From positions 62,001-126,000 of the forward strand of contig JACRCV010000051.1 in assembly GCA_016218825.1 (NCBI GenBank): a stretch of DNA of 64,000 nt, written 5' to 3'. Positions 12,221 through 18,586 of the stretch are shown here, piece by piece. Made by a program: the position numbers and the translations under genes. A model generated the notes under the pieces. It made no database searches, was not told the DNA's origin, and worked only from the letters and a program-made list of their open reading frames with translations. The DNA comes from Deltaproteobacteria bacterium. GTDB taxonomy: Bacteria; Myxococcota; XYA12-FULL-58-9. Every line of letters begins with the position of its first letter. Positions within the stretch are counted from its first letter, which is position 1.

Positions 12221-13006
12221 ATGCTGCGCGCGATGAGCAGTGCTGCGAGCGGAATGTCGGCCCAAGAGCTGCGGATGGACGTGATCGCCAACAACATGGC
12301 GAACGTCAACACCACGGGCTTCAAACGCTCCCGCACCGAGTTCCAGGACGTACTCTACGACAACCTCAAGAGCGCCGGGGCGCTGGGCGGCAACGGCGCC
12401 CAGGTGCCGGTCGGTCTGCAAGTCGGTCAGGGCGTGCGCCCGGTCGCGACCCTGCAGGAGTTCACGATGGGCGACCTCAAGCAGACCGGCAACCCGTTCG
12501 ATCTCGCGATCGAGGGCGCGGGCTTCTTCCAGGTGGCGCAGGCGGACGGAGAGCTCAGCTACTCGCGCGACGGCGCCTTCAAGATCGACGCACAGGGCCG
12601 CCTGGTCACCGCCGACGGCCTGCTGGTAGAGCCGGCGCTGGCGGTCCCCCCCGACGCCCAACAGGTGACGATCACCGCGGACGGCACCGTGTCGGTGACC
12701 CGCCCCGGCCGGCCCGACCCGGTGGAGGTCGGCCAGCTCGAGCTGGCGGTGTTCCCCAACCCCGCCGGGCTCTTGGCCAAGGGCCACAACCTCCTCCAGG
12801 TCACCCCGGCGTCCGGTGCGCCCATCCTGACCGCCCCGGCACAGAACGGCGCCGGGCGCCTGACGCAGGGCGTGCTCGAGCTCGCGAACGTCAGGGTGGT
12901 CGAAGAGATGATCGAGCTCATCGCCACGCAGCGGGCCTACGAGACCAACTCCCGCGTCATCAAGGCCGCCGACGAGATGCTCGGCGCCACCGCCAACCTG
13001 AAGTAG
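12221..13006 (+). CDS. flgG: Flagellar distal rod protein FlgG
   Basis: A 261-residue distal rod protein. It begins MLRAMSSAASGMSAQELRMD followed by VIANNMANVNTTGFKRSRTEF, contains NPFDLAIEGAGFFQV and ends ANVRVVEEMIELIATQRAYETNSRVIKAADEML, all diagnostic of FlgG (the RAYE-NSRVI end is shared with rod/hook proteins). Length matches the 260-262 residues typical of FlgG. The ribosome site GAGGGAGCGAG is well placed. A 12-base gap follows flgF. Confidence 0.97.
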   Translation: MLRAMSSAASGMSAQELRMDVIANNMANVNTTGFKRSRTEFQDVLYDNLKSAGALGGNGAQVPVGLQVGQGVRPVATLQEFTMGDLKQTGNPFDLAIEGAGFFQVAQADGELSYSRDGAFKIDAQGRLVTADGLLVEPALAVPPDAQQVTITADGTVSVTRPGRPDPVEVGQLELAVFPNPAGLLAKGHNLLQVTPASGAPILTAPAQNGAGRLTQGVLELANVRVVEEMIELIATQRAYETNSRVIKAADEMLGATANLK

Positions 13007-13013
13007 GTGCAGC

Positions 13014-13772
13014 ATGCCGTGCTTTCACTCCGTCCCGGCCACCCGCCTCGTTGCGGCGGGTCTAGGCATCGTCTCTCTGGTCGTCGGCGTGGAGGGCCTC
13101 GCGTCGGCCGAGGCTGAGGTGCAGGTAGACGGCGAGCGGATCCACCTGGGCGATCTCGTCGGCGCGTTGCCGGCGGGCCTGGCCGGCGTCGACTTGGGTC
13201 CCTCGCCCCAGCCCGGGCAGGCCCGGATCATGAGCCGCGCGGCGCTGCGCCGGCGCCTCGACGAGGCCATGGTCGATACCGCGGAGGTGCGGCTGCCGGC
13301 GATCGTGCGCGTCTGGCGGCCGGCGCAAATCCTGAGCGCCCTCGAGCTGCAGCCCCTCGTGGCGCTCGCGGTGGCCGAGACCCTGCCGCCGGGGTTGCGG
13401 CTCCGCGACGTGGTGGTCGCCGCCGGCCTGAAGCTGTCACGCGGCCCGGTACAAGTCACGGTCCAGCCGCCGGCCACCTGGCGCCCCGGCCGACAGCTGG
13501 TGCGCGCCGAAGTCCGCGTCGCCACCGGCGCGCCGCGCGCCCTGATGGCGAGCATCGACGTCGAGGGCAAGATCGAGGTCCGGGCGGCGGCGATCAAACG
13601 CGGCGCCGAGGTGCAGATCATCGCCAGAACCGGCGCCGTCGTCGTCCGGGCGCGCGGGGTCGCCCAACAGAACGGCAACGCCGGCGACACCATCCTGGTT
13701 CTGCCGCAGGTAGGCCCGAAGCTGATCAAGGCCCGGATCCAAGACGCGACCACGGTGGAGGTGGAGCCATGA
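13014..13772 (+). CDS. flgA: Flagellar P-ring assembly chaperone FlgA
   Basis: A 252-residue periplasmic protein that helps FlgI form the P ring. A hydrophobic signal segment lies near residues 10-32. The C-terminal two-thirds shows the FlgA/SAF arrangement: GLRLRDVVVAAGLKL, a central LVRAEVRVATGAPRALMASIDVEG, and VVVRARGVAQQNGNAGDTILV close to the C-terminus, the last being the conserved G-x-A-x-x-x-G-xxGDxIxV pattern. Seven bases after flgG; stop overlaps flgH by 4 bases. Confidence 0.88.
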   Translation: MPCFHSVPATRLVAAGLGIVSLVVGVEGLASAEAEVQVDGERIHLGDLVGALPAGLAGVDLGPSPQPGQARIMSRAALRRRLDEAMVDTAEVRLPAIVRVWRPAQILSALELQPLVALAVAETLPPGLRLRDVVVAAGLKLSRGPVQVTVQPPATWRPGRQLVRAEVRVATGAPRALMASIDVEGKIEVRAAAIKRGAEVQIIARTGAVVVRARGVAQQNGNAGDTILVLPQVGPKLIKARIQDATTVEVEP

Positions 13773-14452
13773 AGGCGGTCGGCCTGATGGTCACGGCGCT
13801 GGCGCTCTGCGGCTGCGTGCGCCACATCTACCCCTACGGCGCCAAGGTCCGGAGCTACAAGTCCGACACCTACGCGCCGCGCGACGCCGAGCGCACCGCC
13901 GGCTCGCTGTGGAGCGAGGCGTCACCGGGCCTGTTCGAAGACGCCCGCGCGCAGCGGGTGGGCGACATCCTCACGATCCGCATCGACGAGCGCTCCGACG
14001 CCAACCGCGACGCGTCGACCCGTGCCGGGCGCAAGAACTCGACCGAGCTCGGGGTGAGCGCGTTCTTCGTCGCGATGCAGCGGCTCGCGACCCAGTTCCC
14101 CGGCCTCGATCCGGCGGCCCTGGTCGGCGCGTCCTCCGCCAACGAGTTCGACGGCGAGGGCTCGACCTCGCGCTCCGGGCGCTTGACCGCGACCCTGCCG
14201 GTGCGGGTCAAGAACCAACTCCAAAACGGCGACCTGTTCGTCGAAGGCACCAAGGTGCTGCTGCTGAACGACGAGGAGAGCCAGCTCTACCTCTCCGGCG
14301 TCGTCCGGCCGATCGACATCCTCCCCGACAACTCGGTGGCGTCGTCGCTGCTCGCCGACGTCGAGCTGGAGTACACCGGCCGCGGCGTCATCTCCGAGCA
14401 ACAGAGCCCCGGGTGGCTGGCGCGCCTCGGCAGCTACCTGTGGCCGTTTTGA
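13769..14452 (+). CDS. flgH: Flagellar L-ring lipoprotein FlgH
   Basis: A 227-residue outer-membrane lipoprotein forming the L ring. The signal sequence ends in a lipobox LCGC with the acylated cysteine at residue 16. Family motifs: GSLWSEASPGLFEDARAQRVGDILTIRIDE, the NEFDGEGSTSRSGRLTATLPVRVKNQLQNGDLFVEG region and LYLSGVVRPIDI with C-terminal EYTGRGVISEQQSPGWLAR. Presence of FlgH and FlgI shows a diderm flagellum with P and L rings. Confidence 0.96.
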   Translation: MKAVGLMVTALALCGCVRHIYPYGAKVRSYKSDTYAPRDAERTAGSLWSEASPGLFEDARAQRVGDILTIRIDERSDANRDASTRAGRKNSTELGVSAFFVAMQRLATQFPGLDPAALVGASSANEFDGEGSTSRSGRLTATLPVRVKNQLQNGDLFVEGTKVLLLNDEESQLYLSGVVRPIDILPDNSVASSLLADVELEYTGRGVISEQQSPGWLARLGSYLWPF

Positions 14453-14460
14453 GGTGATGC

Positions 14461-15684
14461 ATGTGTGAGCGCACACGATCGCGGGTCGCCGCGCCTCGGG
14501 CCCGGGCCGCCGTCGCCGCCCTCCTGATCGCCGGCGCCTTCGGGCCGCGGCCGGCGGCTGCAGAGCGCTTGAAGGACGTCGCCGATCTGCGGGGGGCGCG
14601 CCCGAACCGCCTCCTGGGCTACGGCCTGGTCGTCGGCCTGGGCGGGACCGGTGACGACACCACCGCGCCGTTCTCCGCGGAGTCGGCGATGACGATGCTC
14701 CGCCGCCTCGGAGTCCACGTCGACGACCAGCGCCTCCGGCTACGAAACGTCGCGGCGGTGATGGTGACCACCGAGATGCCGGCGTTCGTCGCCGCCGGCC
14801 AGCGCCTCGACGCCACGGTCTCCTCGGTCGGCAACGCCACGAGCCTCGAGGGCGGCACGCTGCTCGCGACCCCGCTCAAAGGCCTCGACCTGCAGGTCTA
14901 CGCGGTCGCCGAGGGCCCGCTGTCGGTGGGGGGGTATCTGGCGTCGGGCAACACCGGCAGTCGGGTGCAGAAGAACCACACCACGGTCGGCCGCATCCCC
15001 GGCGGCGCCCTCGTCGAGCGCGAGGTCGCGGTGAACCTCGGCGGTCACGAGATGCTCATCAACCTCAGGTCCCCCGACTTCACGACCGCGGCCCGCGTCG
15101 CTGCGGCCATCGGCGACAACCTCGCCGCCCGGGCGCCCGCCATCGACGGCACCCCGCCGCCGGCGGCCACCGAAGACGGCGCGCCGCCCGAGGGCGCGGC
15201 GGCTGGCGTCACCGACACCCCGTGGGCGATCGCCCGCGACGCCGGCACCGTCGTGGTCCGGGTGCCCGACGCCTATCGCAACCGGGTCCCGGCGCTGATG
15301 GCGGAGCTCGAAGGCCTCGAGGTGTCCCCCGACACCCGGACCCGGGTGGTGATCAACGAGCGCACCGGCACGGTGGTCCTCGGCGACGGTGTCCGGCTGC
15401 TGCCGGTCGCGATCGCGCACGGGGGCCTGACGCTCGAAGTGCAGGAGGCGCTCATCCCGTCGCAGCCGGCGCCGTTTGGCCGCGGGCGCACGGTCGTCGT
15501 GCCGTCGACGCGGGTGCAGGCGCGGGAGACCGCGGGGCTGCTCAAAGAGGTGACGCCGAGCGCGTCGCTCTCCGACGTGGTTCGGGCGTTGAACGCGCTC
15601 GGGGTGTCGCCCCGAGATCTGGTGGCGATCCTCCAGGCGCTGAAGGCCTCTGGGGCGCTGCGCGCGGAGCTCGAGATCCAATGA
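14461..15684 (+). CDS. flgI: Flagellar P-ring protein FlgI
   Basis: A 407-residue periplasmic ring protein with a signal peptide ending around RPAAAERLKD. Conserved blocks: ERLKDVADLRGARPNRLLGYGLVVGLGGTGDD, VHVDDQRLRLRNVAAVMVTTEMPAF, GGTLLATPLKGLDLQVYAVAEGPLSVGG, and VSPDTRTRVVINERTGTVVLGDGVRLLPVAIAHGGLTLEV. The C-terminus LNALGVSPRDLVAILQALKASGALRAELEI is typical. Length is slightly above the usual 350-370 because of an alanine/proline-rich insert around residues 225-250. Confidence 0.97.
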   Translation: MCERTRSRVAAPRARAAVAALLIAGAFGPRPAAAERLKDVADLRGARPNRLLGYGLVVGLGGTGDDTTAPFSAESAMTMLRRLGVHVDDQRLRLRNVAAVMVTTEMPAFVAAGQRLDATVSSVGNATSLEGGTLLATPLKGLDLQVYAVAEGPLSVGGYLASGNTGSRVQKNHTTVGRIPGGALVEREVAVNLGGHEMLINLRSPDFTTAARVAAAIGDNLAARAPAIDGTPPPAATEDGAPPEGAAAGVTDTPWAIARDAGTVVVRVPDAYRNRVPALMAELEGLEVSPDTRTRVVINERTGTVVLGDGVRLLPVAIAHGGLTLEVQEALIPSQPAPFGRGRTVVVPSTRVQARETAGLLKEVTPSASLSDVVRALNALGVSPRDLVAILQALKASGALRAELEIQ

Positions 15685-16439
15685 GGGTCACGCCGCAGCC
15701 GGTCGTCGCCGCCGGGGCCGCGGACCGTGCCGCCACGCGGCGCGTGGCGCGCGAGTTCGAGAGCCTGCTGTTGAACGAGGTCATGAAGTCGATGCGGCGG
15801 ACGGTGCCGGAGTCGCCGCTCGGCGAGGGGCTCGCCGGCGAGATCTTCACCGGCATGCTCGACGAGACCTTCGCCGACGCGCTCGCGGGGGGTGCGGGGC
15901 TAGGGCTCGCGGACCTGCTCGCCGCACAGCTCACCCCCGAGAATGCCGCGCCGCCGCCGGCCGCCATCGCGCGAGCCCTGACGGACGGCGAGTGGGTCCA
16001 ACCGACGACAACGCCCGCGACGCCCCTGTCCGCCGCGCAGCGCTTCGGCGCCTATCGCCCGGGCAACCGCCCCGCGGCGTGTGGCGCCGGCCACTGTGGC
16101 GTCGATCTCGGACGCCCCGGAGGCACCCCGGTCGTGGCCGCAGCCTCGGGCACCGTGACCGGCGTCGGCCGCGACCCGGGGTCGGAGTCTGGGCTCTGGG
16201 TTGAATTGTCTCATGAAAACCGCAAGCTAACGACGCGTTATCTGCATCTATCCCACATCGCCCCCGAGCTCACGCCGGGATCGAGCGTGACGGCGGGCGA
16301 GGTGGTCGGGGAGGTGGGGGCCACCGGCACGACCGCACGCGGCGACCACCTGCACTTCGAGGTCTCCTATCGCACTCCGGACGGGGGTCGTCGGTGGCTG
16401 GACCCGGCGCCTTACCTCCCGCGGTGGAAGGCCCGGTGA
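15681..16439 (+). CDS. flgJ: FlgJ rod-binding domain fused to M23 (LytM) peptidase
   Basis: A 252-residue fusion. Residues about 15-80 are the FlgJ rod-binding domain (VAREFESLLLNEVMKSMRRT, FTGMLDETFADALA). Residues about 130-245 are an M23 metallopeptidase that would cut cross-linked peptidoglycan: zinc ligands H138 and D142 in HCGVD, and H223-L-H225 in DHLHFEV, with YLHLSH before. In enterobacterial FlgJ the second domain is a glucosaminidase, so here a different hydrolase serves the same job, opening the wall for the rod. No signal peptide; export through the flagellar channel is likely. ATG overlaps the flgI stop. Confidence 0.9.
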   Translation: MRVTPQPVVAAGAADRAATRRVAREFESLLLNEVMKSMRRTVPESPLGEGLAGEIFTGMLDETFADALAGGAGLGLADLLAAQLTPENAAPPPAAIARALTDGEWVQPTTTPATPLSAAQRFGAYRPGNRPAACGAGHCGVDLGRPGGTPVVAAASGTVTGVGRDPGSESGLWVELSHENRKLTTRYLHLSHIAPELTPGSSVTAGEVVGEVGATGTTARGDHLHFEVSYRTPDGGRRWLDPAPYLPRWKAR

Positions 16440-16475: not shown

Positions 16476-16538
16476 GGAGACCAAGTCGGGTGACACGCCG
16501 CCGGCGGCGCCGGTCGACCTCGGGGGGTGGGGACGCTC

Positions 16539-16877
16539 ATGAAGATCATCACGTTGTTCCCTGAATCGACCAAGCCCCGCGCCGGCATGAGCAAGATCTC
16601 GAACGAGCCGAGCCGCGCCCCCGCCGGCGGCAGCGTGCGCCGAGCGGCCGCCGACCGCGTCGACGTCAGCAGCCACGGCCAGGCCCTGGCGGCGGCGCTC
16701 CAGGAGCTGGTGCAGGGCGAGGCCGCGGAGGACAGCGCGCGCGCCGATCGGATCGCCGAGCTCCGCGCACGTCTCGAGGCCAATGACTATCCAGTCAACA
16801 GCCGCGAGCTCGCCGAGGCCATCCTCGCCGACCTCATCCGCTCCGACACCGAGCCGCCGGCGGGAGGCCCGACGTGA
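16539..16877 (+). CDS. flgM: Anti-sigma-28 factor FlgM
   Basis: A 112-residue protein that holds FliA inactive until exported through the completed hook-basal body. The FlgM core is C-terminal: RVDVSSHGQALAAALQEL, then SARADRIAELRARLEANDYPVNSRELAEAILADLI, matching the family pattern for the sigma-binding helices. The N-terminal 40 residues are low-complexity and probably unstructured, as in FlgM generally. ATG 16539 is chosen over an in-frame GTG at 16527 because a purine-rich site precedes it. Its sigma-28 promoter gives the usual negative feedback loop. Confidence 0.85.
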   Translation: MKIITLFPESTKPRAGMSKISNEPSRAPAGGSVRRAAADRVDVSSHGQALAAALQELVQGEAAEDSARADRIAELRARLEANDYPVNSRELAEAILADLIRSDTEPPAGGPT

Positions 16878-17212
16878 ACGACGGCGCCGGAGCCGCGGAG
16901 GCCATCGAGGCCGCGCTGGGCCGGGCGCTCACCGCGGCGCTCGAGCTCGACGGCACGGCGCTCACCGCAGCGACGCTGGCGCTGGAGGCCGGCCTGCACG
17001 GCCTGCCGCGCTCCTCTCCCGAGCGCCTGCGCGTCACTCGCGGGCGGTTGCTGTCATTCTTGAAGACCTGTCGCTTCCTGTCGCGCACGCTCGCGGATTG
17101 CCTCGACGCCACCGTCAGCGAGCTCGATCCCGGGGCCCGCCGTCACTATCTTCGCCGCGGGGCCTTGAGTGGCGAGCGCGCCCCGGCGCTCGTCCTGACC
17201 CGCTACGGGTGA
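16874..17212 (+). CDS. flgN: FlgN-like flagellar chaperone
   Basis: A 112-residue, strongly helical protein (heptad-like ALTAALELDGTALTAATLALEAGL; LRVTRGRLLSFLKTCRFLSRTLADCLDATVSEL). Sequence similarity to FlgN is modest; the assignment rests on size, helical character and position between flgM and flgK, where FlgN, the export chaperone of FlgK and FlgL, is usually encoded. Starts at GTG 16874 overlapping the flgM stop (GTGA). Confidence 0.65.
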   Translation: MNDGAGAAEAIEAALGRALTAALELDGTALTAATLALEAGLHGLPRSSPERLRVTRGRLLSFLKTCRFLSRTLADCLDATVSELDPGARRHYLRRGALSGERAPALVLTRYG

Positions 17213-17215
17213 CCC

Positions 17216-18586
17216 ATGGCAGGGCTATTCGACGCGCTCGGCATCACCGGCGGCGCCTTGATGACGCACGAGTACGGCATCCAGGTCACGGGTCACAACA
17301 TCAGCAACGTCGCGACCCCAGGCTACCACCGCCAGGTCTTGGGCTTGTCCGCGCGGGGTCCGGCGACGCTCGGCGTGACCGACGCCGGCGTGCAGCGCGT
17401 GGCCGACTCGATCCTCGGCCGCCGCCTGGCCGAAGAGCGCGCCGCCGCGGGTTACGCCGACACCCGCGCCGATGCCCTCGCCGTTCTCGAGGCGCTCTTG
17501 GCCGAGCTCGGGGACACCGGCCTCGGCGCTGCCCTCGACTCGTTCTTCGGCGCCTGGCGCGAGCTCGCCAGCGCGCCTCAAGACCTCCCGGCGCGGGCGG
17601 CGGCGCTCGCCGCGACCGACAGCCTCGCGGCCCGCGTCCGTCAGGTGGCCGCCGACACCCACGCCGCCCAGGTGGACGCCGACCATCGGGTCCGGGTTGC
17701 CCTGCCGACGGTCAACACCCGCCTCGACGCCGTCGCCGCCTTGAACCGCTCGATCGCGATCAACGAGGCGGCGGGGAGCGCCGCCCCCGACCTGCGCGAT
17801 CAACGGGAGCAGGCGCTGCAAGATCTCGCCTTGCTCATCGGCGCCCAGAGCTTCGAGGATGACCGCGGCCAAGTGGCCGTCAGCGTCGCCGGCGTGACCC
17901 TGGTGCAAGGTGACGCCGTCCGCCACCTTACCACGGTCCCCGACGCGACCACCGGCTTCGTGCGCCTCACCACCGCTGACGCCGCGCAGGTCGACCTGAC
18001 GCGGCGCCTGACCGGTGGGGAACTCGGCGGGCAGCTGGCGCTGCGGGATCGAGACCTCGCCGGTCTCGCCACCGCCCTCGACGCCTTCGCCTTCGATCTC
18101 GCCACCGCGGTCAACGCCGTCCACCAGGGCGGCGTCGGCGCCGACGGGGTCTCGGGCCGGGCGCTGTTTGCGCCTCCAGCCGCGGTGAGCGGCGCGGCGG
18201 CAGCGCTGGCCCTCGACGCGGCGGTCGCCTCGGCGCCCGATCACCTGGCGGCGGCGCAGGTGGCCGGGGCCGCCGGCGACGGCCGCAACGCCTCGAGCCT
18301 CGCGACCCTCGACCAGGCGCTCGTGGCGAACGGCGGCCAGCTGACGCTCGGTGCGAGCTTGGCGGCCAATCTCGCGGCGATCGGCGCGTTGGTGGCGGAC
18401 GCCGTCGACGCCCAGGCCGAGCAGGCCGGTCGACTCTCGGCCCTCGAGACCCTGCGCGAGTCCCAGAGCGGGGTCTCGCTCGAAGAGCAGATGCTGATGC
18501 TCGACCGCTACCAGCGGGCGTTTCAGGCGGCGTCCCGGGTGTTGAGCAAGATCGACGAGATGTTCGACAGCCTCCTCAGCATGTGA
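17216..18586 (+). CDS. flgK: Flagellar hook-filament junction protein 1 FlgK
   Basis: A 456-residue junction protein (HAP1). N-terminal D0/D1 consensus GGALMTHEYGIQVTGHNISNVATPGYHRQ; middle NTRLDAVAALNRSIAINEAAG, DLRDQREQALQDLALLIGA; C-terminal SGVSLEEQMLMLDRYQRAFQAASRVLSKIDEMFDSLLSM, which is the FlgK end. Length is at the short side for the family (often 450-650), so the exposed D2/D3 domains are reduced. Three bases after flgN. Confidence 0.95.
   Translation: MAGLFDALGITGGALMTHEYGIQVTGHNISNVATPGYHRQVLGLSARGPATLGVTDAGVQRVADSILGRRLAEERAAAGYADTRADALAVLEALLAELGDTGLGAALDSFFGAWRELASAPQDLPARAAALAATDSLAARVRQVAADTHAAQVDADHRVRVALPTVNTRLDAVAALNRSIAINEAAGSAAPDLRDQREQALQDLALLIGAQSFEDDRGQVAVSVAGVTLVQGDAVRHLTTVPDATTGFVRLTTADAAQVDLTRRLTGGELGGQLALRDRDLAGLATALDAFAFDLATAVNAVHQGGVGADGVSGRALFAPPAAVSGAAAALALDAAVASAPDHLAAAQVAGAAGDGRNASSLATLDQALVANGGQLTLGASLAANLAAIGALVADAVDAQAEQAGRLSALETLRESQSGVSLEEQMLMLDRYQRAFQAASRVLSKIDEMFDSLLSM

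Follow-up and report, generated by a model that had tools for sequence, protein, structure and literature searches.

In Salmonella, flgJ is placed after flgI in the flg operon, and its product combines a rod-binding domain with a GH73 glucosaminidase. A single-domain FlgJ can be accompanied by a separate lytic transglycosylase; SltF is such an enzyme in Rhodobacter/Cereibacter. A study by Nambu et al. (2006) reportedly deals with the domain plasticity of FlgJ and may already describe fusions to M23 peptidases. The architecture of a rod-binding domain followed by an M23 domain is listed in domain databases. No paper on a FlgJ-M23 protein was found in the open-licence literature. The accessible portions of published papers present BB0259 of Borrelia as a separate lytic transglycosylase beside a single-domain FlgJ (PMC8517470), describe delta-proteobacterial FlgJ, after Nambu et al. 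2006, as a protein of one domain or one that acts together with a second protein (PMC8517470; PMC6913195), and report that flgJ is absent from Anaeromyxobacter dehalogenans (PMC2330069). In these portions, the passage of the rod through the wall is explained by glycan cutting, either by GH73 in FlgJ or by a separate lytic transglycosylase. Here, we describe a FlgJ with a C-terminal M23 domain, encoded in a 64,000-nucleotide stretch of DNA (the window).

A rod-binding domain and an M23 domain in one reading frame

The flagellar run of the window reads, in order, a sigma-70-type factor (fliA by position), a flgG-type gene, flgA, flgI, the fusion gene, flgM, flgK, a gene for a flagellin-domain protein, and a flagellin gene (Table 1). 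Within this flg operon the fusion gene adjoins flgI, the position of flgJ, and starts at the ATG of an ATGA that overlaps the flgI stop codon. The window FlgI matches PF02119 in two separate stretches, as do its counterparts in the order relatives G001 and G005, which suggests an insertion in this protein. In the interval between flgM and flgK lies a 112-residue frame (16874-17212, +), which has no Pfam match and is FlgN-like by position only.

Table 1. Features of the flg operon in the window and parts of the fusion gene
Feature	Position	Strand	Basis or remark
flgG-type rod protein	12221..13006	+	Pfam
flgA	13014..13772	+	PF13144
flgH	13769..14452	+	inferred from position and lipoprotein-like start
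flgI, P-ring protein, directly upstream of the fusion	14461..15684	+	PF02119
flgJ-M23 fusion gene	15681..16439	+	252 aa; ATG overlaps flgI stop
Rod-binding domain (PF10135), residues 36-83	15786..15929	+	Pfam, E 5.6e-13, 49.7 bits (cut-off 25.1)
Linker, residues 84-136	15930..16088	+	low model confidence; without in-frame start codon
Peptidase_M23 domain (PF01551), residues 137-230	16089..16370	+	Pfam, E 2.3e-21, 76.2 bits (cut-off 28.7); fold matches
HxxxD motif, H138 and D142	16092..16106	+	both in 61/61 distinct fusions
H189	16245..16247	+	H in 59/61 distinct fusions
HLH motif, H223 and H225	16347..16355	+	H in 59/61 distinct fusions; contig ends cut the other two
flgM	16527..16877	+	PF04316
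flgK	17216..18586	+	Pfam and NCBIfam

A preliminary description of this DNA had proposed that FlgJ is fused here to an M23 endopeptidase with all its zinc and catalytic residues, and both points are borne out. The gene is a single stop-free frame of 252 residues in which the rod-binding and Peptidase_M23 models both score above their Pfam cut-offs. The NCBIfam FlgJ model TIGR02541 covers residues 11-99 only (56 bits versus a full-length cut-off of 193), and the glucosaminidase domain of the textbook dual-domain FlgJ (PF01832) has no Pfam match in the protein. H138, D142, H189, H223, and H225 are all present; from the roles known in the M23 family, we take H138, D142, and H225 to be the zinc ligands and H189 and H223 to be catalytic. 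All five residues are complete in 58 of the 61 distinct FlgJ-M23 fusions that we collected, and the three incomplete ones comprise two sequences cut by contig ends (L003 and L218) and one with N for H189 (L144). Along the gene, third-position GC dips to 0.71 in codons 169-210 (16185-16310, +), versus 0.86-0.98 elsewhere.

The closest solved sequences are M23 endopeptidases, the best being 9gy1_A (7.3e-13), with zoocin A, ShyA, and DipM also found. An AlphaFold model, for which the input consisted of the window and related-locus sequences and the M23 part was built on three rows, resembles M23/LytM structures, most closely that of DipM (LytM domain, E 2.6e-6); the model quality is moderate (mean pLDDT 63.7, with residues 89-144 under 50). 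Because some of the matching folds, such as those of EnvC and DipM, are inactive or activator LytM domains, the fold alone is no proof of activity. Taken together, the domains, the active site, and the closest solved sequences lend support to the earlier suggestion that peptide bonds rather than glycan strands would be cut.

A 15-residue hydropathy scan found no signal-peptide-like or hydrophobic stretch at the start of FlgJ-M23, where the maximum is 0.39, versus 1.76, 2.57, and 2.32 in the leaders of FlgI, FlgA, and FlgH, respectively. Such a start would fit a substrate of the flagellar type III export apparatus.

Distribution of FlgJ-M23 and other forms of FlgJ

FlgI was matched in 49 of the 195 genomes of the window's phylum, Myxococcota, and PF10135 in 20. 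When all 49 frames following flgI were read, FlgJ-M23 was found in 44 genomes, which belong to many families. With a profile built here, the rod-binding domain was found in 43 of these 44 M23-bearing frames, G172 being the one in which it was not found. A frame with a rod-binding domain, an M23 domain, or both lies just downstream of flgI in 48 of the 49 genomes, and in the remaining one (G169) the contig ends before the gene. Short single-domain FlgJ follows flgI in two genomes (G051 and G065), and in G021 the frame breaks off shortly behind the rod-binding domain. A glucosaminidase-type FlgJ was seen once, in a second flgI-flgJ pair (L002) on a 3092-base contig of G011. FlgJ-M23 is thus the usual FlgJ of its phylum and no oddity, and the preliminary description's term "domain swap", with the textbook FlgJ as the reference, is misleading for this lineage.

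A few other arrangements were encountered. G011 also carries FlgJ-M23 beside its glucosaminidase-type pair, which represents either contamination or a second flagellar system. In G040 (L015:1234-2631), another of the 49 FlgI-bearing genomes, the rod-binding domain precedes a Peptidase_C39-like one (20.9 bits versus a cut-off of 24), perhaps another peptide hydrolase on FlgJ. The FlgJ of Myxococcales bacterium SB9154 (L025:4899-6062) has a 287-residue tail without a Pfam match, in which a cysteine and a histidine motif reminiscent of NlpC/P60 or CHAP enzymes were noticed by eye; a search without a positive control found no relatives of this tail in the 195 genomes.

Many FlgJ proteins of the phylum are missed by the Pfam rod-binding model. 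For instance, L212, from genome G037, scores 16.2 bits versus the cut-off of 25.1. Since a FlgJ-M23 protein can score below this cut-off and have a peptidase as its strongest match, this offers a possible explanation for the flgJ described as missing from Anaeromyxobacter in the accessible part of that report (PMC2330069).

The survey by phylum was extended to that of G195 (L028, Deltaproteobacteria record), in which PF10135 is present in 138 of 247 genomes and FlgJ-M23 in 17 of the 138. Sixty-eight of the 138 were classified (30 given loci and 38 fetched ones with open frames of at least 180 residues), giving 17 FlgJ-M23 proteins, 8 other long tails, and 43 short forms; the other 70 frames are under 180 residues and therefore too short for the fusion. 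In five loci of this phylum (L109, L111, L112, L113, and L117), the FlgJ tail spans about 400 residues, and the tails of L109 and L111, when scanned, gave no Pfam match and have a low-complexity look.

Among named genomes, the best 80 of 244 passing loci, picked by rod-binding domain patterns and hence not an even sample, comprise 72 with glucosaminidase, 2 with M23, 1 with SLT, 1 with a long unassigned tail, and 4 short forms. The records of the two M23 loci are titled Myxococcota (L017) and Myxococcales (L019), and the SLT locus (L018:4902-5681), from a KSB1 metagenome-assembled genome, encodes FlgJ joined to an SLT transglycosylase. One locus (L083), on a 4.3-kb contig of a Mycobacterium sp. 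MBM record, has a glucosaminidase-type flgJ that is Pseudomonas-like, and is probably contamination.

Degenerate tails and the origin of the fusion

A third phylum, that of G196 (L037, Deltaproteobacteria record), has PF10135 in 147 of 191 genomes. Seventy-seven of the 147 were classified, 45 as long-tailed and 32 as short, the other 70 frames being under 180 residues; the long tails span about 110 to 160 residues. Thirty-eight of the 45 (from L265-L338) were aligned; the seven omitted mostly have long upstream frames. Of the aligned tails, 21 match Peptidase_M23 at E values up to 1, the best (8e-6, 26.4 bits) lying just below the cut-off. In profile comparisons made without the rod-binding part, the tails matched the M23 domains of FlgJ with a probability of 96.0% and, in a comparison of the same type, 33 non-FlgJ M23 domains with 97.7%, versus 0.0-0.3% for the controls (glucosaminidase, SLT, a reversed profile, and five column-shuffled ones). 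A comparison with 17 M23 domains of G195's phylum aligned only one column and was discarded as an artefact. The five active-site residues occur together in none of the 22 tail frames that match the M23 profile, in an alignment so diverged that single columns are unsure, and profile alignments place LYW in the tails where active M23 domains have HLH. Judged by these comparisons, the FlgJ tail of this phylum looks like a dead M23 domain, so an M23-like tail should not in every case be read as making FlgJ an enzyme.

The origin of the fusion was addressed with a tree of 92 M23 domains (59 from FlgJ and 33 others), a quick search with few columns (132) and little support; L003 and L218 were excluded as too short, and six background rows because they proved to be FlgJ themselves. 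On this tree, the FlgJ M23 domains cluster against the remaining M23 domains, which come from the same genomes. The label "FlgJ or other" needs 6 changes, versus a shuffled mean of 27.3 for the "other" group. The data do not reject a single clade of FlgJ M23 domains (p-AU 0.461). One origin is compatible with the tree, yet the tree does not show one.

It is conceivable, though we lean against it, that FlgJ-M23 is old in the delta-proteobacterial lineages and decayed to a pseudo-enzyme in one phylum, while the window's lineage keeps an active enzyme; the decayed rod cap would then be a wall-binding or hydrolase-activating part like EnvC and NlpD. If true, FlgJ would display the full path from enzyme to activator.

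Proposed function and comparison with known systems

We consider it probable that the window protein is a dual-domain FlgJ that caps the rod and opens a path through the wall with its peptidase. It would leave the cell through the flagellar type III apparatus without a signal peptide, and its N-terminal domain would place it at the tip of the rod during growth; there, the predicted activity of its C-terminal zinc peptidase would cut the peptide cross-links of peptidoglycan and let the rod pass the wall. What is observed is one frame with both domains, an intact active site, the operon position, the lack of a start codon at the junction, and conservation across the phylum. No rod-binding match besides that of the fusion gene occurs in the genome, and the gene accounts for one of the 10 M23 matches there. 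None of the 15 SLT matches of the genome lies on the flagellar contig (C26). A profile search for glucosaminidase (GH73), whose control matched in 5 of 14 known genomes, found none in this genome. The assembly comprises 121 contigs and is 96.5% complete, and a glucosaminidase gene could therefore be hidden in one of its gaps.

The M23 domain might, alternatively, mainly bind the wall or activate another hydrolase, an amidase or a lytic transglycosylase, with this partner cutting the hole. We regard this as unlikely, though it deserves to be weighed. EnvC and NlpD have inactive LytM domains with this kind of role, and the tails of G196's phylum, which resemble M23 without its catalytic residues, suggest that a non-catalytic role is present in relatives. 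Moreover, the genome has 15 SLT proteins, which leave room for another enzyme that makes the wall hole. However, the retention of all five active-site residues in the window protein and in nearly all distinct fusions would be unexpected were catalysis dispensable.

It is very improbable that a gene split or an internal start yields two separate proteins, one a short FlgJ and the other an M23 enzyme. Although single-domain FlgJ does occur in two FlgI-bearing genomes of the phylum, the window gene is stop-free and its relatives carry the same fused frame. The in-frame ATG, GTG, or TTG codons nearest to the domain junction are codons 59 and 152, with none between them; a usual start therefore cannot give a separate M23 protein that includes H138, and this explanation was rejected. 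The gene split that the preliminary description had named as the case against the fusion is accordingly not seen. That the fusion is recent and private to one lineage, or that assembly created it, is scarcely credible; nothing was found in favour of either, and both were likewise rejected, because the fusion is shared by 44 of the 49 FlgI-bearing genomes, across many families, and recurs in another phylum (17/138), and a single origin of its M23 domains is not rejected.

If FlgJ-M23 is the active dual-domain enzyme proposed here, the majority of flagellate bacteria in an entire phylum cut peptide bridges, and the hole for the rod need not come from broken glycan strands. The window protein is like Salmonella FlgJ in that one polypeptide carries a rod-binding domain at the N terminus and a peptidoglycan hydrolase at the C terminus; it differs in that the C-terminal domain is an M23 zinc peptidase, whose predicted target is a peptide and not a glycosidic bond. 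With the systems of single-domain FlgJ and a separate lytic transglycosylase, it shares the rod-binding domain and the need for a wall-opening enzyme, but its enzyme belongs to a different class and is part of the FlgJ polypeptide. MepM, ShyA, DipM, and LytM have the same type of M23 domain, including the HxxxD and HxH motifs, whereas the window protein lacks a signal-peptide-like start and is linked to a rod-binding domain. Finally, the FlgJ-SLT protein of the KSB1 genome likewise joins a rod-binding domain to a wall hydrolase, which in that case is an SLT domain and not M23.
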